This document shows, one piece after another, positions 1,207 through 22,230 of a stretch of 44,582 nt of DNA (positions are counted from its first letter, which is position 1; every line of letters begins with the position of its first letter). Under the pieces are notes generated by a model. The model was not told where the DNA came from and ran no database searches. It saw nothing but the letters and a program-made list of their open reading frames with translations. Origin of the DNA: Rhodopirellula sp. Lineage in GTDB: Bacteria > Planctomycetota > Planctomycetia > Planctomycetales > Planctomycetaceae. The stretch is taken from the NCBI GenBank assembly GCA_013203845.1, contig JABMPE010000403.1:1-44582 (forward strand), in the 5' to 3' direction. A program made the position numbers and the translations under genes.

Positions 1207-2547
1207 ATGTCTAACGGGAATCCGTACGCAGACTTTGATGATGAACCGACCGGCACTCCTGCGATGGGAGCCGCTTCCATCGGTGCGGTTCCCATCGGAA
1301 CCACTCAGAACGTGAAATCGGTTTCTGAACTCACGTATGAAGTGAAGGAACTGGTCGAAGGCAACCTGAGAACGCAGTGGGTTGGCGGCGAAGTTTCCAA
1401 CTGTCGACCAGCTCGATCGGGACACGTTTACTTCACACTGAAAGACGACGAAGCTCAGATTGCGGCAGTGATCTGGCGAACGACAGCCGCGCGAATGGGC
1501 TTCGAACTGCGTGATGGCATGGAGATCGTCGCTGTCGGACGCGTCGAAGTTTACGCTGCGCGCGGAAGCTATCAGCTGATCATTCAGAAAGCCTTTCCGC
1601 AGGGAATGGGTTCGCTGGAACTGGCACTGCGGCAGCTCAAAGAAAAACTGGAAGTCGAAGGTCTGTTTGATCCCGCGAGGAAACGGCGAATTCCGCCGAT
1701 CCCCAAACGCATCGCGCTGGTGACGAGTCCGACCAGCGCCGCTGTGAAGGACATGATTCAGGTCATCACTCGCCGCTGGCCGAACGCCGATATTGTCGTC
1801 GTGCCGGTGGCGGTTCAAGGACCAAACGCGGCTCCGGAAATCGCGGCGGCGCTCCGCGTCGTTCATCTGATTCCCGGTGTCGATGTGGTCATCACCGGTC
1901 GCGGCGGAGGAAGTCTCGAAGACCTTTGGGCGTTCAATGAAGAAATCGTTGCGCGAGCGATCGCGAACTGTCGGGTTCCTGTTATCAGCGCTGTCGGACA
2001 CGAGATCGACGTCACCATTGCGGACCTCGTGGCGGACCGGCGAGCGTTGACTCCCAGCGAAGCCGGCGAACTGGTCGTTCCACATCGAGCTGAACTGGTT
2101 GCCGGTCTGGCGGAGCTGCGCGAACGGCTGCAGAATTCGCTGACCCAGCGAGCCGTAAACGCTCGTTTGCAGCTGGACTCGCTGGCGTTGCGTCGAGTCT
2201 TCACGAATCCTCTGCAGCGAGTCCGGCAACTGGTCGAAGGCGTTGACGATATCAGCGACCGCTTGAATGCCGTTGTCCGCCGCCGAGTCGAACGATCACG
2301 GCAGGAAGTCGCTCAGCTTTCTGCGAGCTTGAGTTCGCTGAGTCCGCTGGGCGTGCTCTCGCGAGGCTATTCAGTAACCTACGGCTGCGACGTGGAAAAC
2401 GGTGACGCCAGCGAGACTTCGGCGGTACGAAGAGGCCATCTGATTCGCAACGCCAGCGATGTTGAGGTCGGTCACTCCGTGCTGACCTGTTTTGAACAGG
2501 GCCGAATTGTCAGTCGGGTAGAGCGGATTCTCACTGATGATGCATAA
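1207..2547 (+). CDS. xseA: Exodeoxyribonuclease VII large subunit
   Basis: 446 aa; N-terminal OB-fold (VSELTYEVKELVEGNLRTQWVGGEVSNCRPARSGHVYFTLKD) and core KRIALVTSPTSAAVKDMIQVITRRWP, GRGGGSLEDLWAFNEE, PVISAVGHEIDVTIADLVADRRALTPSEAGE. Confidence 0.97.
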   Translation: MSNGNPYADFDDEPTGTPAMGAASIGAVPIGTTQNVKSVSELTYEVKELVEGNLRTQWVGGEVSNCRPARSGHVYFTLKDDEAQIAAVIWRTTAARMGFELRDGMEIVAVGRVEVYAARGSYQLIIQKAFPQGMGSLELALRQLKEKLEVEGLFDPARKRRIPPIPKRIALVTSPTSAAVKDMIQVITRRWPNADIVVVPVAVQGPNAAPEIAAALRVVHLIPGVDVVITGRGGGSLEDLWAFNEEIVARAIANCRVPVISAVGHEIDVTIADLVADRRALTPSEAGELVVPHRAELVAGLAELRERLQNSLTQRAVNARLQLDSLALRRVFTNPLQRVRQLVEGVDDISDRLNAVVRRRVERSRQEVAQLSASLSSLSPLGVLSRGYSVTYGCDVENGDASETSAVRRGHLIRNASDVEVGHSVLTCFEQGRIVSRVERILTDDA

Positions 2548-2605: not shown

Positions 2606-2684
2606 TCGATCACCAGCCACCCGTTTCACACGAGTTGCGTTGACCATTACTAACAACACCGACAAACAACTGGAGGTTTTTGAG

Positions 2685-3029
2685 ATGCCGAAGATTGACT
2701 GGAGCTATCACCGCCCTGGCTGAACGTCCTGCAAAAAAACGCAGGAGTTTCTTGCGAACAACAGTGTCGACACGGTCGAGGAAATCAACGCTCGGAAAGT
2801 CAGTTATGAGCGTGACGACGCGCTTAAACTGCTGAACGGAATGAATGACCTTTACGTGGCGCGAGGCAGGAAGGTCGTTCACTTCGACCTGAAGAAAGGC
2901 TACGACGCGGACGAAATCGCCGAACTGATTCTGGGGCGTTCTGGAACACTGCGAGCACCGGTTTTACGAGTCGGCAAGAAGCTGATCGTCGGATTTAATG
3001 AAGAGGCCATCGGAGAGGTGCTGAAGTAA
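2685..3029 (+). CDS. ArsC/Spx-family thioredoxin-fold protein, candidate selenoprotein (in-frame TGA at 2721-2723 read as Sec)
   Basis: Translation MPKIDWSYHRPG-[TGA]-TSCKKTQEFLANNSVDTVEEINARKVSYERDDALKLLNGMNDLYVARGRKVVHFDLKKGYDADEIAELILGRSGTLRAPVLRVGKKLIVGFNEEAIGEVLK*; SD GGAGG at 2672-2676; TGA falls at the first position of the CxxC catalytic motif; 'RSGTLRAPVLRVGKKLIVGFN' is ArsC/Spx-like. Confidence 0.7.
2741..2755 (+). promoter_or_regulatory. Candidate bacterial SECIS hairpin downstream of the TGA
   Basis: GCAGGA-GUU-UCUUGC: 6-bp stem including one G-U pair, triloop starting with G; loop G lies 23 nt after the UGA. A competing stronger hairpin UCCUGC-AAAAAAAC-GCAGGA (2727-2746) shares the GCAGGA arm. 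Confidence 0.45.
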
Positions 3030-3296: not shown

Positions 3297-3731
3297 GATT
3301 AGCCCTCCTGATGGATGCCGACGTCATGTTCCGACGACTGACCGGTGAATTGACTCCATTACCCTTCGGCTACCGGAGAAACCGCCACTCTGCCCCGACG
3401 ACGTTCACTACTTAAGATACGACGAAACGTGCTCCTTCACTGGAATGAACCAGCAACAGAATTCCTTTCACCACATTGTCGTCCTTCGCCACGCTGGCTG
3501 TAGCAGTCAAGTAACCTCAAATCCTGATCGCGTGGCACAAAACGCTGGCAGCAGTAGCTGGCTCGGACGGCAGGGATCATTTAGAACTGAAGTCGGATTT
3601 TGTCGGTCATCCACTCCCGGCGTGGCTGGTTTGCCGCAACCAAAGAGAACCGACAGACCACACCAGATGACGCAAGCATGGCGCGTATTTTCCTCAGTAA
3701 CACTCCTGAAAGTACAATTACTGGCAAGAGT

Positions 3732-6700
3732 ATGAAGAACGCTTTTTTAGCTCCGCTGTTTCTGATCGCGCTTTTCGGAAGCTGCGTCGACGCATCCGAG
3801 CAGGCGAGGTTTAAAGAGAGCGTCCAGCCGCTCGTCAAAAAATACTGCCAGCGATGTCACAACGTCGACAAAATGACGTCGGGCATTCGAGTCGACCAGC
3901 TGGACGGGTCTCTGGAGGACCGGCATCTTTTTCTCTGGAAGGGCATCCTGAAGCAGATCGACAACGAGGCGATGCCGCCTGAAGACGAACCGCAGCCGAC
4001 CATTGATGAAAGAAAGCTACTGGTCGAGTGGATTCAGCAGGCGTTGACCACTGCTCGATCCCGCAACACCGACAAGAACGGTTCCGTGCGTCGCCTGACC
4101 GTCGCTCAGTATCGGAACACGCTGCGCGATCTGCTGGGGCTTGAAGACAACCTTGCCGATGTGCTGCCCGCCGACGGTGTCTCGAAGGACGGGTTCCTCA
4201 ACAATGGTCAGACCATGGAGTTGTCGCCGCTGCTGATCGAAGCGTACTTCGATGTTGCTGCGAAAGCTCTGGACCGTTGCATCGTCGATGAACAGTCCAG
4301 GCCATCAATCCAGAACTTTCGCATGGACCTGGGAGCGGGCATCAATCCCGATCCATATCCCGAACCGCTGATTCTGGGCGCGTTGAATCATCTGCTGCCG
4401 AATCAGGATTTCATGGTGACTCAGCTGACAGCTCAGAAGCCTTTCGAGTTTGACCCGTTCTTCATGCGCACGAAATATCGGTTCAACGAGGGGTACGAAG
4501 GGAACTCGACGGTCCGCGGCTGGAGAGACTACGACAGCATCTACCACGCCGTTTTTGCGTGTATGCGGGGAAATCCGGGATATCCCAAAGGACTCGCTTA
4601 CCAAACCGTGGCGGATGGTTTGCTGCTGCGTCCGGCAATTCCAAGTGCGGAACTCTTTCAGGTCGAAAGTACGTACGGACCGCAGGCCAACTTCAAGATT
4701 TCGCTGCGTGAACTGCCGGACCGTGGACGATTTCGTGTGACCGTCAAAGCGGCGAAATATGACGATGGCCTGCTGCTCGACGCCGACGCTCCGACAATTG
4801 AAGACGCGACGGAAACGCTGACGCTCAAAAATCTTTCGACGTCGCAAACGCTCCCTGTGAAGCAGGCCGGAATTTATCAGGCGGATGTGTACCTCGAATC
4901 GCCGTCGACAGAATTGATTCCACCGGACAATTCGAAACTGACTGAGGAACTGGTCGGTGCCTGGTCGCTCAACGGCAGCACGGAAAGTCAGTCGAAGCGA
5001 CCAGAACTGACGGGCCGCCTGGAAGGTGATGCCCGGTTCGAAAAGTCTCCGTTCGGGAAGGCGATCGCACTCGACGGGGACGGCGACGCGGTCGTGATTC
5101 CTCGCGATAAAACCATGAACGTGGGCGAGGGAGATTTCACCGTCGCGGCCTGGATCCGCCCGCGCGAACTTCGGCAGGCAGGTATCGTCTGTCTGGGCAA
5201 GTACAGTTGGACTCACGGCTGGTATCTCGACATGCCCAACAATCAGGGTGTGCTGCGAATCGAAACAGCCAGTCCGGCCAACCAGGCGAACGGTACGGTC
5301 GCGTCGCGGCCAGGCATTATCCGAAAGAATAAGTGGCAGCATGTGGCGGCGGTGGTTCGTCGCGGAGCGGCACCGACCGAACTGTTCGTCAACGGCTATA
5401 AGGTGGCCTCAGGAACGATCGCGCCGACGAACCTGGACAACCCCGCTGTGAGCCTGAATATTGGACGCATCCAGAATGCCCAGCAGTTCAAAGGCGAAAT
5501 TGACGAGGTGCACTTCTTCCGCCGCGCGTTAGGCGTCGCTGAGATTCAGGCGCTCGTGGAACCCGGACGTAAGTTTGCAGTGCCGCCTCCGGTTGATAAA
5601 GCAAAGGAATTGCGTCTGCAGATCGGTGACCGGAACTTCGCGGCGACGCTTCGGCAACCGGCTTTTCTGGCGGTGAGACTCCCGGCTGGTTCAGTCGAAG
5701 TCCGAACATCGTACGCCGGTGCTGAAACTCCGCACCGCATTGTCTTCTCTCAGATCGACGCCGCTTCGGAACTCGGCAAACGATTCACGACTTTCGAAAG
5801 ACGGTCGCCGAGAATCGGAGTACACGTTGGACTTCGCCGCGACTGCGGCAGCACGCTCAGTCAGGTCGGCGCTGCTCAGTCGGTGTTGAACAGCGATTTG
5901 GCCAGCTACGTTTTCGAAGGAGCGATCAGCAACTTCCCCAGTCCGGACGTGCAGGACGACAACGACAACTACCTGGCCGGTGTGCGTGAAATCGGAGTTC
6001 GCAGTGAGTTCACGGATGGTCGCGACATGCCGCGACTGTTGATCCGGTCGGTCGAGTTCGAAGGCCCGTATTACGAAACCTGGCCGCCGCAAACGCACCA
6101 GCAGATTTTCATCGATTCCAACCACAAAGATGACCAGCCTGCGTACGCCAGAGAGATTATTCGAAACTTTGCAACTCGCGCATTCCGTCGGTCGGTCACG
6201 AAAGCAGAAGAGGCGGCGCTCTTCGCTGTGTTCGAGAGCACTTTCTCCGAGACGAACGATTTCACTCGCAGCGTCAAAGACGCGTTGCTTGTCGCGCTGA
6301 CGTCGCCGCAGTTTCTGTTTCTCACGGAAAACAGCAGCGGTCCGGAAGGCGAACCGCTCGACGGTCACGAGCTGGCGTCGAAGTTATCTTACTTCCTGTG
6401 GAACACGGCTCCTGATCACCGACTGCGCGAACTGGCCGCGACAGACACTCTGTCAGAGTCGCTTGATGCCGAAGTCGAGCGAATGGTTCATGATCCAAAG
6501 TTCCGGCAGTTTACCAGCGAGTTCGTTTCGCAATGGCTGCAGCTCGAAAAGTTCGAGGTCGTCGAGATCGATCGAAACCGGTATCCCAGGCTGACCCGCG
6601 ACACCAAAACGCAGTTGCGAGCCGAGCCGGTTGAGCTGGTCCAATATCTGATGCAGCAGAACCTGCCGCTGAGGAATCTCGTTCAATCGGATTTCATCGT

Positions 6701-7346
6701 CGCCAACGAGGTCGTCGCCAGTTACTACGACCTGACGGAAGCGACGGAGCATGGTTTTGAATTCGTCGTGATTCCTCATCACCGTAAGAATCTGGGAGGC
6801 GTCTTGACGAGCGCTGGAATTCTCGCCGGACTTTCCAATGGTCGAGAATCGAATCCGGTCAAGCGCGGTGCCTGGCTCGCTCGTAAAATCATCGCCGAAC
6901 CGCCCGATGATCCACCGCCGAACGTTCCAGCGCTGCCTGAAGAGAACTCGAATCTGACATTGCGTCAGAAGCTGGAACAGCATCGCAATCAGGAAGGGTG
7001 CGCCAAGTGTCACCAGGGAATCGACCCGTGGGGCATCCCGTTCGAACAGTTTGATGCCGGAGGGCTGTTTAAGCAGGATGAAGTTGTTGATGCGCGATCG
7101 ACACTTCCTGACGAAACCGAGATTGCAGATTTGAACGCATTGAAGACATATCTTGCGGAAGATCGGATCGATCAGGTCGCTTTCAGTTTTCTGAAACATC
7201 TGACTTCCTACGCGATCGGTCGCAGCCTCACCTACAACGAGATTGAGTTTCTGAAGGAACAAGGGGTAGGATTGAGGGCGAACGGCTACCGAATGCAGGA
7301 CATGATTCGGTTTGTCGTGACGAGTGACATGTTTCTGGAGAAGTAA
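3732..7346 (+). CDS. Planctomycete-type cytochrome c / DUF1592-DUF1588-DUF1585 protein with an internal LamG-like domain
   Basis: ORF 3600..7346, signal-peptide start at ATG 3732 ([22 protein letters not shown]); heme motif [29 protein letters not shown]; LamG-like '[24 protein letters not shown]…[11 protein letters not shown]'; C-terminal [22 protein letters not shown]. Confidence 0.9.
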
Positions 7347-7427
7347 GACACAGCCCGCCGCCGATTAACGGTTCGTAAGCCGTACCTTCCTCGCGAGTTC
7401 CACTCCTCACCCACCACGGAATTCCTC

Positions 7428-8768
7428 ATGGCCCACTCTGTTCAACTTGACCGCCGCGCCGTTCTTAAAGGTCTTGCTGGAGCGACGCTGGCTCTGCCGG
7501 TTCTCGATGTCATGGGAACCGAAGTTGCCGAGCAGACGCCTCGCCGGTTCTGTGCTCTCTACACCGCTAACGGGATGTCGCTGCCGAATCAGAAGAACGA
7601 GATCCCCGAGTGGCACTGGTTTCCGACTGCGGAAAACGACGGTCAGTTCGTCTTCGGCAAATCGACAGAACCACTCGCCGGTTTTCGCAATCAGCTGAGC
7701 TTCATGGGCGGACTCTACCATCCCAGCGGTCCGAAAGCCGATCCGCACGTCTGTTCGGACATGTGGCTGACCGGTGCGCCGCTACACGATTCAAAACCTG
7801 GCAAGTACAACTCGGTGGGCCTCGACCAGATTATCGCACTGCATACGAAACAGTATTGCCGTCAGCCCTCGCTGGTTTTGTCAATCGACGCCGGTACGGG
7901 TTTTCTGTCGCGAACCGGAACGATCTCATACAGCCTCGATGGCAAACCGATCCCCGCCGAGAACAACCCGCGCCGAGTTTTCGATCGTCTGTTTCGAGGT
8001 GACCGGGCATCGCTGGAGACAAAACGCGACAGCCTGAAGCAGCGACTCAAACTGGTGGACGCTGTTCTCGAAAACGCGCGAACGTTCAACCAAAAGCTGG
8101 GCAAGTCTGATAAGCAGAAGATGGATCAGTACCTGACTTCGCTGAGCGAAGTTGAGTCACGATTGATCGCTTCCGAAAAATGGATCGACATTCCAGTGAA
8201 GCCGCAGGATTACTCGCACCTGAATCTGGACGTCACCCCGGAAGGCGAACCTGCCGAATACTACCGCAACATGTTCGACCTGATCGCTCTGGCATTTGAC
8301 GCAGACATCACACGTTCGGTGACCTTCATGCTGAACCGCGAAGACGGAATGGGGATCAGCGACACGTTCCCGTTGAAGCTCGGTTTAAGCCGGACGCACC
8401 ACAGCCTCTCGCATGCTGGCGACAAGGACGGACAGATGGACTTCGCAAAGTACGACCGCTTCCTCAGCGAGCAACTGGCTTACTTCTTCGCGCGTCTGCA
8501 GTCTTACAGGGACCGCGAAGGCAGCGTGCTGGATAACAGCATCGTTCTGTTCGGCAGCGGTGCCAGCACGACTCACAACCCCAGGAATCTGCCGACGCTG
8601 CTGGCGGGAGGAGCAAACATGGGGTTGAAACATGGAGCCTACTGGCGCGATGGCGAGACGCTGATGTCGAATGTGTATCTCAGCATTCTACGCTCCATGC
8701 AGATCGAGCGGGAATCGTTCTCCGACAGCACTGGCGTGCTCCGGAATTCGATCTTCTCCGCGGTCTAA
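7428..8768 (+). CDS. DUF1552 domain protein (Tat-type signal)
   Basis: [24 protein letters not shown] Tat-like N-terminus; [17 protein letters not shown]…, [37 protein letters not shown] typical of DUF1552; directly follows the DUF1592 gene. Confidence 0.9.
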
Positions 8769-8781
8769 CATCAACGAACCG

Positions 8782-8816
8782 CTGGGGGGCTGGCGGTCGA
8801 GCGCAGCGAGCCCCAG
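8782..8816. repeat. GC-rich imperfect inverted repeat in intergenic region
   Basis: CTGGGGGGCT…AGCCCCAG stem around GGCGGTCGAGCGCAGCG. Confidence 0.45.
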
Positions 8817-8947
8817 TTCCCTCCGGAACCGGTCTCATTCGTTGTTCCGCAGAGTGTGACATTTTACGACGGCATCACCGGTTTTGTTGACATCGCTCGA
8901 GTCGACTTCTTGGACTCCGTCTTTCTGAATAGATCCTGGTTAATCAC

Positions 8948-11900
8948 ATGATGATTCGAAGAACAATTCTGACTTTGCTCGTGGCGTTGTGTTTCGCGCG
9001 CGGCGCTTCGGCTGCTGACGGTGAAGTGAACTTCAGTCGCGACATTCTGCCGCTGCTGTCTGACAACTGCTTCAAATGCCACGGCCCCGACGAAGCCAAT
9101 CGTGAGGCAGACCTGCGACTCGACAAGCAGGCGAACGCCGTCGCCCGACTGGAATCCGGTCATGCCGCGATCGTGCGGGGAATGAGTGCCCAGAGTGAAC
9201 TCTTCAAACGGCTCGTTTCCCCCGACGCTGACGTCAGGATGCCACCGCCAGATTCCGGAAAACAACTGACTGAAACACAAATCGCATTGATTAGAAAGTG
9301 GATCGACGACGGTGCCGAATGGTCGGGGCACTGGGCCTTTCAACCACCGACGCCACCGGAAATCCCATCGCCCATACCGGACTGGCGAACCAACAATCCG
9401 ATCGATCAGTTTGTGAATGCGAGACTGGCGGCGGCCAGGCTGACACCAGAAAATCGAGCGTCGAAGGAAACGTTAATCCGCAGAGTGACGCTCGATCTGA
9501 CGGGACTGCCGGCGACGATCAAGGAGATCGATGCGTTTCTGGCGGATGATTCGGACCAGGCGTTCGAACGCGTCGTTGATCGGCTGCTGAGTTCCGCAAC
9601 GTACGGCGAACACATGGCTCGTTACTGGCTGGACGCCGCACGGTATGGAGACACTCACGGTCTGCATCTGGACAATGAACGGTCCATCTGGCCCTACCGT
9701 GACTGGGTCATTGATTCGTTTAATCGCAATCAGCCGTTCGACGAATTCACGATCGAACAGATCGCGGGCGACCTGCTTCCGGAACCGACGCTGCAACAAC
9801 GCGTCGCCACTGGTTTCAATCGATGTAACGTCACCACCAGCGAAGGTGGTTCGATCGATGACGAATATTACATGCGATACGCGGTCGACCGGGTGGAAAC
9901 AACGGCGACGGTCTGGCTGGGTCTGACCGCTGGCTGTGCCGCATGCCACGACCACAAGTTCGACCCGCTGACGCAGAAGGAGTTCTATCAGCTCTTTTCG
10001 TATTATTTCAGTCTCACCGAGCGGGCGATGGACGGGAACGCTCTGCTGCCGCCGCCGAGTGTCCAGGTTCCGACTAAAGAACAGGCCACACAGAAGAAGC
10101 AATACACCGCGGACCTCGCCGCAACGAATCAGCAGATCGAGAAACTGCTGGCAGACTTTCAATACACCGATCCAGAACCCACCGAGCCGCTCGGCGAGCT
10201 GAGTGAAGAAACATTCGTCTGGATCGACGATGAACTTCCCGCCGGAGCTGTCGCTCAGGGCAACGGCACGCCCCCCTGGCAGTTTGTCGAAGCTCCCAAC
10301 CATCCGGTTCACAGCGGAACAAAATCGACAGTTCGCACCGGCGAAGGTGAAGCAATCACGCAGCACTTCTTCACGGGAGCGACCAACAAACTGAAGCTCG
10401 ACGAGAATGCCAAACTCGTCGCCTGGGTGTTCCTTGACGAACAGAATCCGCCGCAGACGATTCAGTTGCAGTTTAACGATGGCTCGTGGGAGCATCGCGC
10501 GTCGTGGGGCGCCGACAAGGCTTTCGGAGCTGGACGGAACGATGCGTCGAACCGGCTCATGGGCAAACTTCCGGAACTCGGAAAATGGATCCGCCTCGAA
10601 GTCGACGCGACCCTGGTTGGTCTGAAGGCTGGCTCGGAGTTGAACGGCTGGGCGTTCACTCAGGTCGGCGGAACGGTGCATTGGGACGCAGCTGGCGTGA
10701 CATCGAAGTCGTTGTCAGAAGATCAGAAGCAATCACTCTTCGCCTGGGAACAGTTTCGGGCGAAGGTCAAACAGCCGGCGTTGCCCGCCGAAATCCAGAA
10801 GCTGCTCGACGTCGAAAAAGCGAAGCGGACTGACGACCAGACGAAGCAGTTGACGCGCTACTACATTCAGAACGTTCATCCGGATTCGCGCGCGATGCTG
10901 GCCGAACCACTGAAGGCGCAGGCAACACTCACTCTGCAACTGGCCGACCTTGAAAAAGCGATCCCCGCGACGCTGGTCATGGAAGATCGCAAGGATCCGC
11001 GGCAGGCTTACATCCTCGAACGAGGCCAGTACACCGAGAAGCGCGACATGGTCTCATCAGCCGTTCCCGAGTGGATTGCTCCACCAGTTAAAGACGCCCC
11101 TGCAAACCGACTGGGACTCGCCCAATGGCTCGTTCAGCCCAGTCACCCGCTCACCTCACGCGTCACCGTCAACCGGTTCTGGCAACAGTTTTTCGGCACC
11201 GGTCTGGTCAAGACGTCAGAAGATTTCGGTGTCCAGGGCGAACAGCCTTCGCATCCGGAACTGCTCGACTGGCTGGCGATCGACTTCGTTGAATCAGGAT
11301 GGGACGTCAAACGGTGTCTGAAGCAGATTGTCATGTCAGCCACATATCAGCAGTCATCGCGTGTGACGCCCCACAAGCTGGCGGCTGATCCCAGCAACCG
11401 ATTACTGGCCCGCGGACCGCGATTCCGGCTCGACGCTGAAACCATCCGCGATCAGGCCCTCGCCGTCAGTGGCTTGCTGATTGATACGATTGGTGGCAGA
11501 AGCGTGAAGCCCTACCAGCCCGCCGGCTTGTGGAAGCCGGTCGGATTTGGAGGCAGCAACACGTCGGTGTTCGTGCAGGACAAGGGCGACAAACTCTTTC
11601 GCCGCAGCATGTACACCTTCTGGAAGCGCACCGTGCCGCCTCCGTCGATGGCCACGTTTGACGCTCCTGACCGCGAGACCTGCGCCGTTCGTCGAGCCCG
11701 CACAAATACGCCGCTGCAGGCTCTGGTCCTGATGAACGACGTGCAGTATGTCGAGGCGGCACGCAAGTTCGCGGAACGAGTCATCAGCGAAGGCGGTAGC
11801 AGCGTCGAAGAGAGAGTCATCTTTGCGTTCCGGTCCGTCGTCGCTCGACCTCCAAACGCCACCGAGTTGCAGACTTTGACGACGCTGCTGACGGAATACT

Positions 11901-12055
11901 TGAGCGAATTCAAAAGTCATCCCGATTCTGCGGCAAAGCTGTTATCGGCTGGCGAGTCTCCTCGAAATGAACAACTCGATGCGAACGAACTGGCCGCCTG
12001 GACGATGGTGACTCACCTGCTGCTGAACCTCAGCGAGTCCGTCACCAAGGGTTGA
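8948..12055 (+). CDS. PSD1 / DUF1549-DUF1553 domain cytochrome c protein
   Basis: Signal peptide; [126 protein letters not shown]. Confidence 0.95.
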
Positions 12056-12106
12056 AGCAGAGCCCATTGCAACATTTACGACAACGACACATCAAGGTAA
12101 CCAGCG

Positions 12107-13573
12107 ATGAATCCACTTCGTGAATCAGCACTCGTTGAAACAAGACGCCACTTTTTTGGTCGTTCTGCGACGGGCATTGGTGCCGCGGCTCTGGCGTCAC
12201 TTGTAAACCCCGATCTATTCGCTGAAACGTCGCCCGGTGCGTCTGCGGAGTCCAATGGACTTTCAGGGCTGCCGCACTTTGCTCCCAAAGCCAAGCGAGT
12301 GATCTATCTCTTCATGTCCGGAGCGCCATCGCAGCTCGACATGTGGGATTACAAACCGAAGATGCTCGACTGGTTCGACAAGGACCTGCCGGATTCGGTC
12401 CGCAATGGCCAGCGAGTCACGACAATGACTTCCGGACAGAAACGCTTTCCCATTGCTCCGTCGATGTTCAGGTTCGGGCAGCACGGAGCGAACGGCACAC
12501 GAGTCAGCGAGATTCTGCCGTACACCGCGAAGATGGTCGACGATCTGGCCGTCATCAAAACGGTGCATACTGAAGCGATTAATCACGACCCGGCGATCAC
12601 GTACATCCAGACGGGCAGTCAGTTACCGGGCCGACCGAGTACCGGCGCATGGCTGTCGTACGGGCTGGGAAGCATGAATCAGAATCTGCCGGCGTTTGTC
12701 GTGCTGCATTCAACCGTCAATGGAGGCTTCGGTGGGCAGGCTCTTTACTCACGTCTCTGGGGAGCGGGTTTTCTGTCGACCAGACATCAAGGGGTGAGCC
12801 TGAGATCGACCGGCGACCCGGTCCTGTACCTGTCCAACCCGGACGGCATGTCGACCGCCATGCGCCGACGAATGCTGGACGAACTGAGCAAACTGAACCA
12901 CGAACGTTTCAACGAAGTCGGCGACCCGGAAATCCAGTCGAGAATCGCTCAGTACGAAATGGCGTACCGAATGCAGACATCAGTTCCCGAGCTGACCGAC
13001 ATTTCCGGCGAAACGAAAGAGACGCTCGACATGTACGGCCCGGACGTGACGAAGCCGGGGACTTTCGCGGCGAACTGTCTGCTCGCCCGTCGTCTGGCGG
13101 AGCGGGGAGTTCGCTTCTCTCAGGTCTTCATTCGCCAGTGGGATCAGCATGGCAACCTGCCGAACGACATTCGTCGGCAATGCGGGATCATTGATCAACC
13201 GTGCTACGCACTGGTTCAGGACTTGAAGCAACGGGGCCTGCTGGAAGACACGCTCGTCATCTGGGGAGGGGAATTCGGTCGCACGATCTACTGCCAGGGT
13301 GGCCTGACCAAATCAAATTACGGTCGCGACCACCACCCCCGCTGTTACACCAAATGGATGGCAGGAGCCGGCATCAAGGGCGGAACCGTTTACGGAAAAA
13401 CCGACGACTTCAGCTATAACATCGACGAGAACCCGGTCCACATTCACGATCTGAACGCCACGATTCTGCAACAGTTAGGCATCAATCACGAACGGATGAC
13501 CTTCCGCCATCAGGGACGCGATTTCCGTCTGACCGACGTGCATGGAAATGTCGTGCATGACATCCTGGCGTAA
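12107..13573 (+). CDS. DUF1501 domain (sulfatase-like) protein with Tat signal
   Basis: [21 protein letters not shown] Tat motif; [44 protein letters not shown]…[25 protein letters not shown]. Confidence 0.95.
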
Positions 13574-13692: not shown

Positions 13693-14883
13693 TCACGAGA
13701 CCTCGGTAGACGGCAATTCCTGAACTTCCGGCTGCCGCTGCTTACGGGTCTTCCTGGGGACCATGCTCCGCATGGACTCCAACTTGCCGAAGCACAGCAA
13801 TCGATCACCCGGTTCCAGGATTCGGTCACTGCGAGGATTCGGAATAACGGTTGTGGCTCGATAAAGCGTCAGGGCGTTGATGTCTTTGTCACGAAGTCCC
13901 GATTCCGCGATCGTTCGACCAACATATTCTGAGCCCGCCGGCACGTGAATTTCAGTAACGCCATAGCCCTTACTGACGGTGAGCCGCTGCCGCAGGTCGA
14001 TCTCAGGAAAATCGACTTGAGCGGCCATGTAGTCCACAATGGCTCCTGCAATGTCGAGCTGCGTGCAGGTCTCGATGCCTTCAAGGCCGGGGGACGAATT
14101 GACTTCCATGATTTGTGGCCCGTCTTTACCTTCGAGCATGTCCACGCCAGCGACGCGAAGCCCCATGATCTGAGCTGATCGGACTGCGGCTTCACGGTAG
14201 CGGTCATCCAGCTCGACGACCTCCGTCTTGCCGCCGCGATGGACGTTGCTGCGAAATTCCTGTCCTTGAGCAACACGCCGCATCGCCGCTACCACCTGAT
14301 CACCGACGACGAAAGCCCTCACATCTCGTCCTTTGCTCTCGGAGACGAACTTCTGGATCAGCACATTCTGTTTCGTGCTTTGCAGCGTCTCGATAATCGC
14401 TTCCGCGATTTTCACCGAGTCCGCCAGAATCACGCCGACTCCCTGAGTCCCTTCCAGCAGCTTGATGATTACCGGGGCTCCGCCGACGCGTTCAATGGCT
14501 GGAAGTACGTCCTTCTTATCTCTGACAAACGTCGTTTTGGGAATGCCGATCTGGTGCCGACTGAGGATCTGCATGCTGCGGAGTTTGTCGCGTGAGTTCG
14601 AAATCCCGCCGGATGAATTGGCAGAAAACACGTCCATTTGCTCGAACTGGCGAACAACCGCAGTACCAAAGTAGGTGATCGAGGCACCAATTCGCGGTAA
14701 AACTGCGTCGTATGCGGAGAGCTGTTTCGAATGGTAGTAGAGGTCCGGTTCGCCCTGTTCAAGATCGATCGCAAACTTGAGTGTGTTAAGCACCTTGACT
14801 TTGTGGCCGCGTTGTTCGGCGGCTTCGCGAAGTCTCCGGGTGCTGTAACACTTGGTACTGCAGGACAGAATTCCCAGTTTCAT
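13693..14883 (-). CDS. RimK-family ATP-grasp ligase with C-terminal TrkA-C/RCK_C-like domain
   Basis: MKLGILSCSTKCYSTRRLREAAEQRGHKVKVLNTLKFAI…, PVIIKLLEGTQGVGVILADS, MEVNSSPGLEGIE; C-terminal EIHVPAGSEYVGRTIAESGLRDKDINALTLYRATTVIPNPRSDRILEPGDRLLCFGKLESMRSM resembles RCK_C. Confidence 0.9.
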   Translation of the reverse strand: MKLGILSCSTKCYSTRRLREAAEQRGHKVKVLNTLKFAIDLEQGEPDLYYHSKQLSAYDAVLPRIGASITYFGTAVVRQFEQMDVFSANSSGGISNSRDKLRSMQILSRHQIGIPKTTFVRDKKDVLPAIERVGGAPVIIKLLEGTQGVGVILADSVKIAEAIIETLQSTKQNVLIQKFVSESKGRDVRAFVVGDQVVAAMRRVAQGQEFRSNVHRGGKTEVVELDDRYREAAVRSAQIMGLRVAGVDMLEGKDGPQIMEVNSSPGLEGIETCTQLDIAGAIVDYMAAQVDFPEIDLRQRLTVSKGYGVTEIHVPAGSEYVGRTIAESGLRDKDINALTLYRATTVIPNPRSDRILEPGDRLLCFGKLESMRSMVPRKTRKQRQPEVQELPSTEVS

Positions 14884-14973
14884 CGCATAACCCTTACAAC
14901 TTCAAAGTTCGCATGACGCCTGTTCAGGAACGCGTCAGAAATTACTTTCCGGATGCGTTGAGAGCGGAGATTT

Positions 14974-15045
14974 TCGTCGTTCCCGCGCAGGCGGAAAACC
15001 AGTTTTCCCTTGGTCTACTGGATTCCCGCCTGCACGGGAATGACG
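14974..15045. repeat. REP-like inverted repeat
   Basis: Left arm CGTCGTTCCCGCGCAGGCGG (from 14975) is nearly complementary to right arm ATTCCCGCCTGCACGGGAATGACG (15022-15045); inner GGAAAAC-CA-GTTTTCC hairpin lies between the arms. Confidence 0.7.
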
Positions 15046-15146
15046 TTGTTGGAAAACCGGGAATTTATTTCTGAACACGATCCTTAGTGGACGAGGGGCG
15101 TCCGGCAGGTGTGTCAGGAGAAATCGCCTGCGTTTGGCAGGAAGAT

Positions 15147-15554
15147 TCAGCGTGGTTTTGTTGGTGTGTCAGGCGTAGTGGAAACATCCTGGAGGCGGCT
15201 AAGGATGTCGTTCACTGCCACGTCGTAGCGTCTGACGAGGACATCCACCAGACGAGTCCGGGCGGGCCCTGGTTCCTGAACCACCAGTTCCTTGGGATCG
15301 TAGAGGCTGAGAGTTGCATCCACATCGGATACGTCCTGCGCCATCTCAACAGAGCGGTGTTCCAATTCACCAGCGGCCGTTGTGCGATACGAAATTTCCA
15401 CGGCGAGTTCGCCGGATCCGGTCCGATAGACTGAAATGTCGTGCCAACGCCCGCCGGTTTGGCCATCAGCGTCCTGGCCATCCACCGACAACAGTAACTC
15501 TCCGTCAAACTCAATCGGAGGTTGTTGAGTGGGTGAAAGAACGATCGGTTGCAT
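15147..15554 (-). CDS. Hypothetical protein (135 aa)
   Basis: Good SD (AAGGAGTATCACATG) upstream of ATG at 15554; MQPIVLSPTQQPPIEFDGELLLSVDGQDADGQTGGRWHDISVYRTGSGELAVEISYRTTAAGELEHR…. Confidence 0.7.
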   Translation of the reverse strand: MQPIVLSPTQQPPIEFDGELLLSVDGQDADGQTGGRWHDISVYRTGSGELAVEISYRTTAAGELEHRSVEMAQDVSDVDATLSLYDPKELVVQEPGPARTRLVDVLVRRYDVAVNDILSRLQDVSTTPDTPTKPR

Positions 15555-15664
15555 GTGATACTCCTTGAAGATAGTTCGAGGTCGACACGGTTCGTCAAAC
15601 TACCGTCTTGTTTATGCCGCGACTTCAACGACCAGTTGGTCGAATTGATGCGATCCTTCGAGCG

Positions 15665-15868
15665 TCAGTCGTCGTGGTTGTATGACGAAAGCCGATTCAT
15701 AACCAGCTCACACGTTGTCGAGCCAATCAGCATTGCGACAAATACAACGCCTCACGGAACAGTCAGCGTCGAAAAACAACAGCGCCGACAGACCTGGGTG
15801 TTCTGCAGGATGATGATCATTTCCAGCGGTGTAACGAGGCCAACGGCAATCCACGTGATACGGCCCAT
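15665..15868 (-). pseudogene. Possible small membrane protein interrupted by an in-frame TGA
   Basis: MGRITWIAVGLVTPLEMIIILQNTQVCRRCCFSTLTVP-[TGA]-GVVFVAMLIGSTTCELVMNRLSSYNHDD*; hydrophobic segments on both sides of the stop at 15752-15754. Confidence 0.25.
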
Positions 15869-16221
15869 CAGATCAAGACTGCTTTCGCCGCTGGGGCACA
15901 ACCCGTTTCCAACAGAGCCAAATCAGACAGAGTCATATCGCAGGAAGTGTGCCATGTCATTAAATCACCATGATTTAAAGTCATAGCCCACAACGGTGAG
16001 CATTCTCTGCTCAAAGAGGCCATTGCCTGTTCATTTGCCGCCTGCGGTGGGTGCTCGACGGTTTTTTGACGACCGAAGGCCCGCACATGCAACCAGTGAC
16101 GTCGGCCGGAATTCTTCAGGGCAACGGCTGAATTCTCTCTCTCGACAGGCAGCTTTGGATCGAATTCAGTAACCTGCGGCATGACTTGAAGCGGCATCAG
16201 TTGATCAGGAAAAATTCGGAC

Positions 16222-17748
16222 ATGAGAAAGCGACGTCTGCTGGTCGTGGATGATGAACCTTCCGTGCTACAGCTTTTTCGTAGCGTTTTCGAGAAGCAGG
16301 GTATCGAAGTGCTCACTGCCGACACGGCTCGCGGAGGCCTGAAAGTTGCAAGTGAGCAGATGCCCGACGTGGGTATCTTCGACCTCATGCTTCCCGACTG
16401 GTCGGGCCTCGACCTGCTGAAAGAGGTAAAACAGGTCGACTCGAGATTGCCGGTTATTTTCATCACGTCCGGCGGAACCAGTGCGACGGCCATTGATGCA
16501 ATGAAGCTCGGCGCATTCGACTATCTCACCAAACCGCTCAATATTCGACAAGTCCGGGAACTTGTTGATCGCGCGCTGGAAGTTCGACGGTTGATGAACG
16601 CACCGGTTGCTCTGGGCGAAGCCGGAGAGCTGTATCCGGAATCGGGCGACATCATGATCGGTCGTGGTCCAGCCATGCAGGAAGTCTACAAGGCCATCGG
16701 CCGAGTCGCTCCCAAAAATGTCACGGTCCTGATTCGTGGTGAAAGCGGCAGTGGCAAAGAACTTGTTGCGCGAGCCATCTATCAGCACAGCGAACGCTGC
16801 GACGGACCATTTCTGGCGGTGAATTGTGCGGCCATTCCTGAAGCGCTTCTGGAAAGTGAACTCTTTGGTCATGAGAAAGGTTCGTTTACCGGCGCCGAAC
16901 ACCGCCGCATTGGTAAGTTCGAACAGTGCGATGGTGGCACGCTGTTTCTCGACGAAATCGGCGACATGCCACTCAGTCTGCAAAGCAAGATGCTGCGAGT
17001 CCTGCAGGACCAGTCGTTTCAGCGCGTGGGTGGAAACGAAACAATCCGAACCAACGTCCGTATCATCACCGCGACGCATCACGATCTGAAAGCAGCAGCC
17101 GAAGCGGGGCAGTTTCGGTCAGACCTCTACTACCGCCTGAATGTCTTTGAAATTGATCTGCCGCCGCTGCGGGCACGGCTCGACGATCTGCCGCTACTCG
17201 TTAAATATTTTCTGCGGCACGCACGCCTGGAACTCGACAAGGCCGTCAGCTCTGTCAGTCAGGAAGCACTCGACCTGCTACTTGCCTATCAGTGGCCGGG
17301 CAACATTCGCGAACTGCAAAGCGTCATCAAACAGGCAGTGCTGAAGTCAGTAGGTCCCGTTCTGGTTCCCGACTTTCTGCCAGACCTTGCCAGCGAATCA
17401 ATATCAGTTGCGACGTCGACGACGACGTTGGAGTCTGACGAGTTTTCTGATTCGAATGCCGTATTGACGCCTGGAAACAGCGATCCAGACTCCGAGAGGT
17501 TACGTCCAACGTCGCCAGTCGCTGCGTGGGTGGACTGGGATAACTTTATCGCGACAGAGCTGGAAGCCGGCAGCCGGTCGATGTACGACGACGCGATCAG
17601 CCTGACTGAGAAGCACGTTATCTCCCGAGTCCTCAACCACACTGGGGGGAATCAGGTTCAGGCTGCGGAAATGCTTGGCATTACTCGCACGACACTCCGC
17701 AACAAGATCAAGCAGCACGGCATCATTATTGGTCGAACGGTGGAGTAG
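16222..17748 (+). CDS. Sigma-54-dependent response regulator (NtrC/AtoC type)
   Basis: REC domain [20 protein letters not shown]…; AAA+ [32 protein letters not shown]-terminal Fis-type [33 protein letters not shown]. Confidence 0.95.
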
Positions 17749-17749
17749 C

Positions 17750-18454
17750 TCAGGCGGCCTCAGCAGCCGCCACGAAACTTTCCAGCAGTGACGTCTGCAA
17801 CGCTGGCCATTCCTTGAGCCGGCTAAGCGGCCAGAGCTGGTTCACCTCGACTTCAACGCCGACGTAGTCCTCTGCCGAGAACCGGCGGCGCAGCGCCGTA
17901 GTCAGTCCGTCCGATGTCCCCAGATAGGGGTAATTCATGCGGATGCGAAGATCCGGGCGTGCAGACTTCAGGGACCGTTTCCACTCGTGGCTGACTGACT
18001 GCTCGCCGGATCGTGACGGGTCGTAAAGGAACCCGATGTCAGCATTTCTTACTTCGCCGTAAAGCTCAGGCGTGAAGCTGTGCATGCCGATGTGGACGAC
18101 CCGGTTTCCGGCTTCGATCAGTGATCTCACGGTCGTTTCCACTTGCGATCGGTGCGGCGAGTAGTAGTCATCCAGAACCACCTGGCGAGCTTCCCCGGTG
18201 AGCGACCTGGTAAACTCGGAAAAGACCGATCGGCTCGACGGTTTGCGGTTCAGATCGACAAGCAGTCGCGTCACTGTTGCAGCAATCAGCGGAGCATTCA
18301 GCTGGCAAGCAAACAGTTTCGCCAGGTCGAGCGAACCTGGATCCCAGCCGCGATGAGTCGCAAGTACGTCGTCCGCACCTGCAAACAGCGGCTGATACTC
18401 TGGGGGCACTTCGTGACCGCCATGTTCGGCAGTGATGACGAATTGTGTTGCCAT
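17750..18454 (-). CDS. N-formylglutamate amidohydrolase family protein
   Basis: FVITAEHGGHEVPPEYQPLFAGADDVLATHRGWDPGSLDLAKLFA…, VVHIGMHSFTPELYGEVRNADIGFLYDPSR. Confidence 0.88.
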   Translation of the reverse strand: MATQFVITAEHGGHEVPPEYQPLFAGADDVLATHRGWDPGSLDLAKLFACQLNAPLIAATVTRLLVDLNRKPSSRSVFSEFTRSLTGEARQVVLDDYYSPHRSQVETTVRSLIEAGNRVVHIGMHSFTPELYGEVRNADIGFLYDPSRSGEQSVSHEWKRSLKSARPDLRIRMNYPYLGTSDGLTTALRRRFSAEDYVGVEVEVNQLWPLSRLKEWPALQTSLLESFVAAAEAA

Positions 18455-19711
18455 TTACGACCTCACAAACACTCGCCCGGTGGCGAGGCAGTCCGCCAGC
18501 TCTCGATAAACCATCAACAATTCCTCGTGAGACGGTTCGTCCGGCAGTGCGTCCGTTAAACGGCGAGCGAGTGGGCCTGAGTCCAGAATGATCTGCAACG
18601 GATCGATGCCGGTCGAGTCATTCGTGACAGAAACTTCGCTTCGACAAATCAAATCCTGCCAGAGATCGATTGCCCGAACCGCAGACGATCCTTTCCAGCC
18701 AAGCAGTTTCAGATAATCCGGGTTACTGATCACCGCTTCGTCAGCATCCCGCAGCGTTGCCAGAAAAACTTCATGCAGCGGCTCGACCGGCAGGCTTTGT
18801 TGTTCCGCCAGTGCTGACCAGCGTTCACTCACCAGCGACTTCAGAACTGCAACGGTCGCCTGAGCCACAGCCAGATCGACGGCAGGACATTCCTGAATAT
18901 CGATCACGCGAATTTCGATGGAACCACGACTGAACCTCGCAATGGCTCCGCGAGCGTTGAGAAACTCGTCACGCAGAACTCCCGCCGGATCGTAAGGAGC
19001 AATCTCGGCAAACATTGGCTCAAAGATCTGCTGCTGATACTCGCCACGTGTAAAAACAGGTTCCGGAATCACACAACCAACGACCGACTTCAGCCGCCGA
19101 GCGTTCGTGCGGTAAACTTCCAGGCGATTATCCAGCAGCCCGGTCCGCTTTGCATCCATGATGGGTGAACTCGCAGCGATCGCCGGCAGCAGTGGTAAGA
19201 CCAGTCGGATGGCCGCATGCAGTCGTCCGAATTCATCATCGGGTTTACGATCACCACAGAACGGCAGGTTGAGGTGCATGCTTTGCAGGTTCGCCCAGCC
19301 GTGACCACGACAATCAAAGATGCGGTTAAACGCCGCATAGATTTCGTGGGAATCGTGCGGCCAGAGATGCATTTCGTTGAACGGGTCCATCCAGGGATGC
19401 ATCGCTGTTGGTAAGAGTCTCCCTCCGAATGATTTCAGTTCTCCGTTGATTGTTTGAACGTGTTTCTGAAAACGCTCGACAAGTCCGTCGAGTGACTTTG
19501 CTGGTCTCGCAGTTTTCAGTTCGACTACGTGCGAAACCAGTTCGTTCGACCAGTCGATGTCGTCGTGTTCAATGTCGGAAACGATTTCGCCAGCGACCTG
19601 CTGGAAAAGTCGATCCGTCATCGGACTGACGTTCAGTCGCTGGTCGTCGACGATCATGTATTCAAGTTCGACACCGACCGCATCGAACAAGTGAAGTGGT
19701 GAAGCAGTCAT
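18455..19711 (-). CDS. Carboxylate-amine / glutamate-cysteine ligase family 2 (GCS2) protein
   Basis: ORF 18455..19747; DAVGVELEYMIVDDQRLNVSPMTDRLFQ, LLPTAMHPWMDP, SMHLNLPFCGD, SRGSIEIRVIDIQECPAVD; adjacent to the amidohydrolase with no gap. Confidence 0.88.
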   Translation of the reverse strand: MTASPLHLFDAVGVELEYMIVDDQRLNVSPMTDRLFQQVAGEIVSDIEHDDIDWSNELVSHVVELKTARPAKSLDGLVERFQKHVQTINGELKSFGGRLLPTAMHPWMDPFNEMHLWPHDSHEIYAAFNRIFDCRGHGWANLQSMHLNLPFCGDRKPDDEFGRLHAAIRLVLPLLPAIAASSPIMDAKRTGLLDNRLEVYRTNARRLKSVVGCVIPEPVFTRGEYQQQIFEPMFAEIAPYDPAGVLRDEFLNARGAIARFSRGSIEIRVIDIQECPAVDLAVAQATVAVLKSLVSERWSALAEQQSLPVEPLHEVFLATLRDADEAVISNPDYLKLLGWKGSSAVRAIDLWQDLICRSEVSVTNDSTGIDPLQIILDSGPLARRLTDALPDEPSHEELLMVYRELADCLATGRVFVRS

Positions 19712-19830
19712 GAGGGAGACTTCTGCATGTCCAACAAAAAGCGGCAACGTGTAATCACCAGGCGCGAAGACGTGAAGACAACGTCAGCACAACTCCGCCC
19801 GAAAAACGTCATTCGTCCCGGCGGCGGACA

Positions 19831-21385: not shown

Positions 21386-22099
21386 TCATGCCGAACGATC
21401 GGGCCGTTCAATGATCAGCATATTGGCATCATAGGTAACCACTCCCAGCAGGATCGCGCACATCACACGCTCCAGCGGAACCTCGTAATGGTGACCTTCG
21501 GCATGAGGATTGGCTTCGTACGGATCCGCGACCAGCACCAGGCGAGTGACCGGGTCGTAGCCGCAGAGCACGACGAAGTGGCCAACCGGCAGGCCGCGAA
21601 TGTTATCCGGTTGAGACTCGGGATAAGTCTCGCGCGGGTCACGATACAACCAGGTCAGGCTCAGCCCAGTCAGCACTGGAATTCCGCGACGCAGATAACG
21701 ACGCAGCAAAGCGGGCGACATGTCTTCCAGCCGGATTCTGCCGCCTTTCTGCAGGAAATTGATGTAAGCCTGCGAAGCTGTCTGCAGTTTCGCATCCTTT
21801 TTGAACTCCATCTGAGCCCGCAGCAACTCGACGAGCGGCTGGTCAATCGGATCAAACCAGGTCGGGTCGAACACGTACAGGTTGCAGGTGTAAAGAGTCG
21901 CCTTGTAGCCGCGTTTCAGCGCGTGCTGACCGAGCAAAGCCGCCAGTGTTCCACCAGTTTCAACGGTCTCGACTTCGTCGATGACCTGCTCAAGCGGCAG
22001 GTCATCTCCGTAATAGCCGTAGACGGCGTGGAGCGAAGTCGGGCCGCAGGTCGAATCGGTTGGTTGCGGCAGAATGGGAAATGTCAGTCGGTTTGCCAC
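21386..22099 (-). CDS. C39-like (papain-fold) peptidase family protein
   Basis: GTG start at 22099: VANRLTFPILPQPTDSTCGPTSLHAVYGYYGDDLPLEQVIDEVE…GLPVGHFVVLCGYDPVTRLVLVADPYEANPH; Cys and His catalytic contexts intact. Confidence 0.82.
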   Translation of the reverse strand: MANRLTFPILPQPTDSTCGPTSLHAVYGYYGDDLPLEQVIDEVETVETGGTLAALLGQHALKRGYKATLYTCNLYVFDPTWFDPIDQPLVELLRAQMEFKKDAKLQTASQAYINFLQKGGRIRLEDMSPALLRRYLRRGIPVLTGLSLTWLYRDPRETYPESQPDNIRGLPVGHFVVLCGYDPVTRLVLVADPYEANPHAEGHHYEVPLERVMCAILLGVVTYDANMLIIERPDRSA

Positions 22100-22230
22100 G
22101 GTGGTCCTGCTGGACGAATTCAGCCGCGAGCGTCTTCGTTGGTGGCTGGAGCAACTCCAGCACGCGAGGCAACCGCAGCCGGGCGTAGTTCTATCACGGT
22201 CCCGTTCGTCACGTAAGAGTTCCCGGTTAA

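Follow-up and report, generated by a model that had tools for sequence, protein, structure and literature searches.

The locus examined here raises the question of whether a TGA codon lying inside a short planctomycete gene is a lesion or a site at which selenocysteine (Sec) is inserted. The gene occupies positions 2685 to 3029 on the plus strand of the window, by which we mean the whole stretch of 44,582 nucleotides from Rhodopirellula sp. Overall, our analysis suggests that the TGA, which is located at a redox active site, is very probably read as selenocysteine. Taken as a whole, the selenoprotein explanation for this gene has, in our estimate, a probability of about 0.95.

Frame and family of the gene

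The frame opens with ATG at 2685, eight nucleotides after a Shine-Dalgarno sequence GGAGG (2672 to 2676, plus strand) that can be read directly, and closes with TAA at 3027 to 3029. The sole in-frame TGA, at 2721 to 2723, is codon 13, and no further lesion is present. The predicted read-through product has 114 amino acids, with the N-terminus MPKIDWSYHRPG-U-TSCKKTQ and the active site HRPG-U-TSC. Comparison with homologues places the TGA at the first residue of a UxxC active site, and the resolving cysteine of U-T-S-C, residue 16, is encoded by TGC at 2730 to 2732 and is invariant in 47 aligned members. An earlier note on this DNA had described the single-TGA frame exactly, as its coordinates, Shine-Dalgarno sequence and TAA all match ours, and its remark that standard ORF calling keeps only a C-terminal fragment was reproduced: under table 11 just 2841 to 3029 (62 amino acids) is retained in this frame. 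On comparative grounds a chance origin of the frame is excluded, since the same frame, with TGA at the same codon, occurs in four other genomes of the genus and in many other genera.

The ArsC/Spx-like identity put forward in the same note is borne out by two profiles. The read-through protein scores 131.2 bits (cut-off 85) against NCBIfam NF041106, ArsC_rel_Se_1, 'ArsC family (seleno)protein', over model positions 1 to 106 of 107, and 36.4 bits against Pfam ArsC PF03960 (curated cut-off 24). Against the Spx and Spx/MgsR models it falls well short of the required scores (38.8 versus 123, 29.9 versus 152 and 28.9 versus 159 bits), as it does against TIGR01617 (44.2 versus 75.05 bits). A (U/C)xxC motif is present near the N-terminus as U13-T-S-C16. 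With its near full-length match, the window protein is a plain member of NF041106 and shows no difference of substance from that family, whose name implies both Sec and non-Sec members.

This is a selenoprotein family already named in databases through a curated NCBI model and common across the phylum, and the locus is a new member of it. The 2008 survey of the marine Global Ocean Sampling metagenome listed 'Arsenate reductase 2, cd03032, UxxC' with 42 Sec members predicted in silico (PMC2398784), and a 2022 review has the entry 'Arsenate reductase-like protein, COG1393, UxxC' (PMC9312934), its reference 64 being that survey. 'Arsenate reductase 2' shares the domain family and the UxxC motif with the window protein, and on domain and motif, from which the exact subfamily identity is deduced, the family of the window gene is very probably among the selenoprotein families predicted from that metagenome (PMC2398784). 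Selenoproteins and a complete Sec machinery have been described in planctomycetes before (PMC4807772). No biochemical characterisation of a family member was found in the literature searched.

Sec and Cys codons among relatives

A set of 79 related genomes, the source genome included, was used for the comparison. Matches to NF041106 above the cut-off were found in 32 of the 79, with codon 13 being TGA in 21 and TGC in 11. All five genomes of the same genus that carry the gene have TGA, and the lone genome of the genus with no match is 59% complete. In a phylum-wide sample of 297 genomes, most matches above the cut-off contained one TGA, and a record titled Candidatus Kuenenia stuttgartiensis (L076) is also of the TGA form. 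Among 60 homologues sampled, 16 had TGC or TGT at the Sec codon. No plasmid-borne relatives were found. The earlier note had left room for a TGA confined to this strain; comparison of orthologues shows that TGA is common to the genus and to most homologues in the phylum and is not strain-specific.

Pairwise dN/dS within the genus, calculated over the whole read-through frame, ranged from 0.03 to 0.11; by this measure purifying selection acts on the frame in its full length. In a protein tree of 60 members the Sec and Cys states were interleaved, with at least 11 changes, of which at least six are forced by well-supported branches.

The codon state follows the Sec machinery. A selA match above the cut-off was present in all 21 TGA genomes versus four of the 11 Cys genomes (Fisher p = 9.8e-5, a value that is indicative, as related genomes are not independent). 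The four selA-bearing genomes with a Cys codon are G047 (L038), G074 (L022), G035 (L023) and G065 (L036), and they point to replacement of Sec by Cys without loss of the machinery. G047 contains the nearest relative outside the genus (61% identity) and has TGC despite selA in its genome.

Sec machinery and the hairpin after the TGA

The source genome is an 8.54 Mb draft MAG of 758 contigs with 6.4% contamination. The earlier note had named selA, selB, selC and selD as the genes to look for, and all were found. The tRNA-Sec is on C501 (69.4 bits; identified by ARAGORN as tRNA-SeC with anticodon tca, UCA), selB on C470 (282 bits) and selD on C283 (263 bits). selA is in two pieces, C289:3160-4305 and C20:12-362 (L001, L002), which match overlapping model positions 1 to 370 and 334 to 453 and probably belong to a single gene interrupted at a contig end. 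A SelW-like gene on C284 (match 21986 to 22195; TIGR02174, 53.6 bits) has a TGA in a CVQU motif, a CxxU site (L117 1525-1527), followed by a hairpin CCGCC-GGUCU-GGCGG, and is a probable second selenoprotein of the genome; the window gene is thus not the genome's sole apparent Sec gene. No Uxx-star glutaredoxins were found in the genome, and none of its formate dehydrogenase matches had an in-frame TGA.

Downstream of the TGA in the window gene lies the hairpin CGCAGGA-GUU-UCUUGCG (2740 to 2756, plus strand), which has a 7-bp stem and a GUU loop at 2747 to 2749. The stem begins after a 16-nucleotide spacer 3' of the TGA, and the loop is 26 nucleotides from the U of UGA. A scan of all registers across 19 TGA homologues selected one register, with a mean of 6.5 of 7 pairs versus 3.1 in Cys homologues, and so fixed the loop position; a register with the loop one base off was rejected for poor pairing. 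Counted pair by pair, 93.2% of positions were paired in the 19 TGA sequences versus 44.2% in 11 Cys sequences, the latter being about the level of their own shuffles. Three pairs were changed on both sides among the TGA sequences (11 cells versus a shuffled mean of 3.4), a value reached by none of 500 shuffles. A covariance model of the region scored the window site at 73.4 bits, partly by construction as the window sequence is in its training set, and the genome's next best place at 18. Codons 18 to 24, which bear the hairpin, are identical in the five genus genomes, though pairwise dS over the gene is about 0.5 to 1.1.

Folding of the window RNA was less uniform. The isolated segment 2736 to 2760 folds to exactly the SECIS hairpin (-8.2 kcal/mol, z -3.9). 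When the folded segment also takes in the bases that immediately follow the TGA, another hairpin is favoured, in which 2727 to 2732 pair with 2741 to 2746, and plain folding of 54 nucleotides does not favour the SECIS hairpin from the window sequence alone; the case for a SECIS element therefore rests on comparison. This alternative hairpin (UCCUGC/GCAGGA, window 2727 to 2746) overlaps the SECIS, is predicted in all five genus genomes and is seen mainly there. It may be a competitor or a regulator of the SECIS, and we infer that a ribosome pausing on the UGA would cover its TGA-adjacent bases. The SECIS register fails to hold in several other planctomycete classes of the phylum. A search against Rfam gave no match at gathering score in the window, and the low-score matches around the gene are not meaningful. 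Judged by the comparison of TGA and Cys homologues, the hairpin at 2740 to 2756 is a bacterial SECIS, tied to the TGA forms and absent from the Cys forms. The reading of the TGA as Sec in a UTSC centre, as the earlier note had inferred, is accordingly supported by the machinery, by retention of the TGA and by this covarying SECIS-like hairpin.

The caveat in the earlier note was that a cysteine codon, TGC or TGT, had become TGA by mutation or miscall. A lone in-frame stop has such a look, the MAG is fragmented, and homologues with Cys at this codon do exist (the 16 of 60 above). However, independent assemblies across the genus and the phylum share the TGA, the whole frame is kept by purifying selection, and the TGA co-occurs with selA and with the covarying hairpin. 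The dN/dS values together with the shared TGA exclude recent mutation or base error as a general explanation, and the shared TGA together with the SECIS covariation refutes a pseudogene in the same general sense; the caveat is rejected, and for this locus we consider a lesion extremely improbable. Insertion of a different amino acid at the TGA, such as Trp or Cys, through a suppressor or a reassigned code would agree with a frame open on both sides and with Cys at the same place in homologues. Against this, the only TGA of the gene sits at the redox residue, the window's other main genes run as long open frames when read with table 11, tRNA-Sec and selA, selB and selD are present, and the hairpin is tied to the TGA; the chance of such read-through is close to nil.

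Fold and probable function

An AlphaFold2 model built from 47 homologues (mean pLDDT 92.1, pTM 0.83) has a thioredoxin/glutaredoxin core, with a TM-score of 0.73 to 0.74 when normalised to a dithiol glutaredoxin (PDB 7c10). The window protein shares this core with dithiol glutaredoxins but exceeds them by about 40 residues and contains an ArsC/Spx-like insert. In the model, residue 13 stands directly ahead of the first long helix (residues 14 to 25), which is the usual place of the nucleophile in this fold. Ten positions are invariant in the 47 members (Y8, R10, U/C13, C16, G84, G87, R90, P92, G97 and G103). Among them are the redox pair (U13/C16) and the proline at the cis-Pro place (P92) that a dithiol oxidoreductase of thioredoxin-type fold needs.

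The nearest solved structures by sequence are Spx proteins, which also came top by E-value in the structure search with a whole-chain TM-score of about 0.55. Spx proteins of Bacillus and Streptococcus (PDB 1z3e, 3gfk, 6ghb, 3l78) have a redox pair of equal spacing at the same place. In contrast, the window protein has about 24% identity to them and falls below the Spx model cut-offs, its middle segment is modelled with a beta hairpin, and Ala replaces the Arg that precedes the cis-Pro in the Spx alignment.

These likenesses would allow the protein to be an Spx-type transcription regulator that carries a Sec-containing redox switch and binds the alpha subunit of RNA polymerase. Spx proteins are its closest solved relatives in sequence and fold, the UxxC takes the place of the Spx CxxC switch, and Gly52 of the window protein aligns with Gly52 of Spx, the contact residue for the RNA polymerase alpha-CTD. 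That glycine is kept in just 24 of the 47 members, however, the protein scores far below what the Spx models require, and the whole-chain TM-score is only moderate, so that a regulator of this type is unlikely; that a Sec-based, Spx-like redox sensor with a Sec-Cys switch controls planctomycete transcription through RNA polymerase is more doubtful still. A true arsenate reductase, of the ArsC type that works with glutaredoxin, would agree with the PF03960 match and with the historical family name. In ArsC the residue before the cis-Pro is the catalytic Arg94; where Spx and ArsC have Arg, Ala is found in 46 of the 47 members, including the window protein (Ala91 before Pro92). The predicted centre is a UxxC pair and no ars genes were found among the neighbours examined, and arsenate reduction as the function therefore appears highly unlikely. 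With Ala before the cis-Pro and Gly52 in only 24 of the 47 members, 'ArsC' and 'Spx' name a fold and neither function is supported.

Gene order gave little further guidance. The neighbours of the gene are a TIM-barrel isomerase-like gene and xseA (exonuclease VII large subunit, 1207 to 2547, plus strand, just upstream), and among the loci examined they are kept within the genus only. The xseA gene order was dropped as a lead to function for this reason, and outside the genus the neighbourhoods of the loci examined gave no clue to a partner. Elsewhere in the window, genes of planctomycete type (DUF1592/1588/1587/1595/1585, DUF1552, DUF1549/1553 and DUF1501) occupy 3600 to 13573 and fit a planctomycete origin. 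The stretch 13693 to 19747 contains a minus-strand cluster of genes for a RimK-like ATP-grasp protein, a member of the N-formylglutamate amidohydrolase family and GCS2 (glutamate-cysteine ligase family 2); a plus-strand gene for a sigma-54 response regulator sits among them.

Our best guess is that the protein is most likely a Sec-dependent thiol-disulfide oxidoreductase. As the comparison of homologues suggests, SelB, docked on the 2740 to 2756 hairpin, would bring the Sec-tRNA-Sec that decodes UGA codon 13. The product would be a 114-amino-acid protein of Spx/ArsC-like thioredoxin fold, as modelled, whose U-T-S-C redox centre lies in the loop leading into helix 1. Judging from its fold and UxxC motif, the Sec13 selenolate would most likely attack disulfides or oxidised thiols of a partner, and possibly peroxides; Cys16 would then resolve the mixed selenenyl-sulfide, and a thioredoxin- or glutaredoxin-type reductant would recycle the enzyme.

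The locus confirms that a first-pass reader is able to spot a true selenoprotein truncated by standard ORF calling. For the family itself, the repeated exchange of Sec and Cys inside one phylum makes NF041106 a convenient system for asking why selenocysteine is kept or lost.
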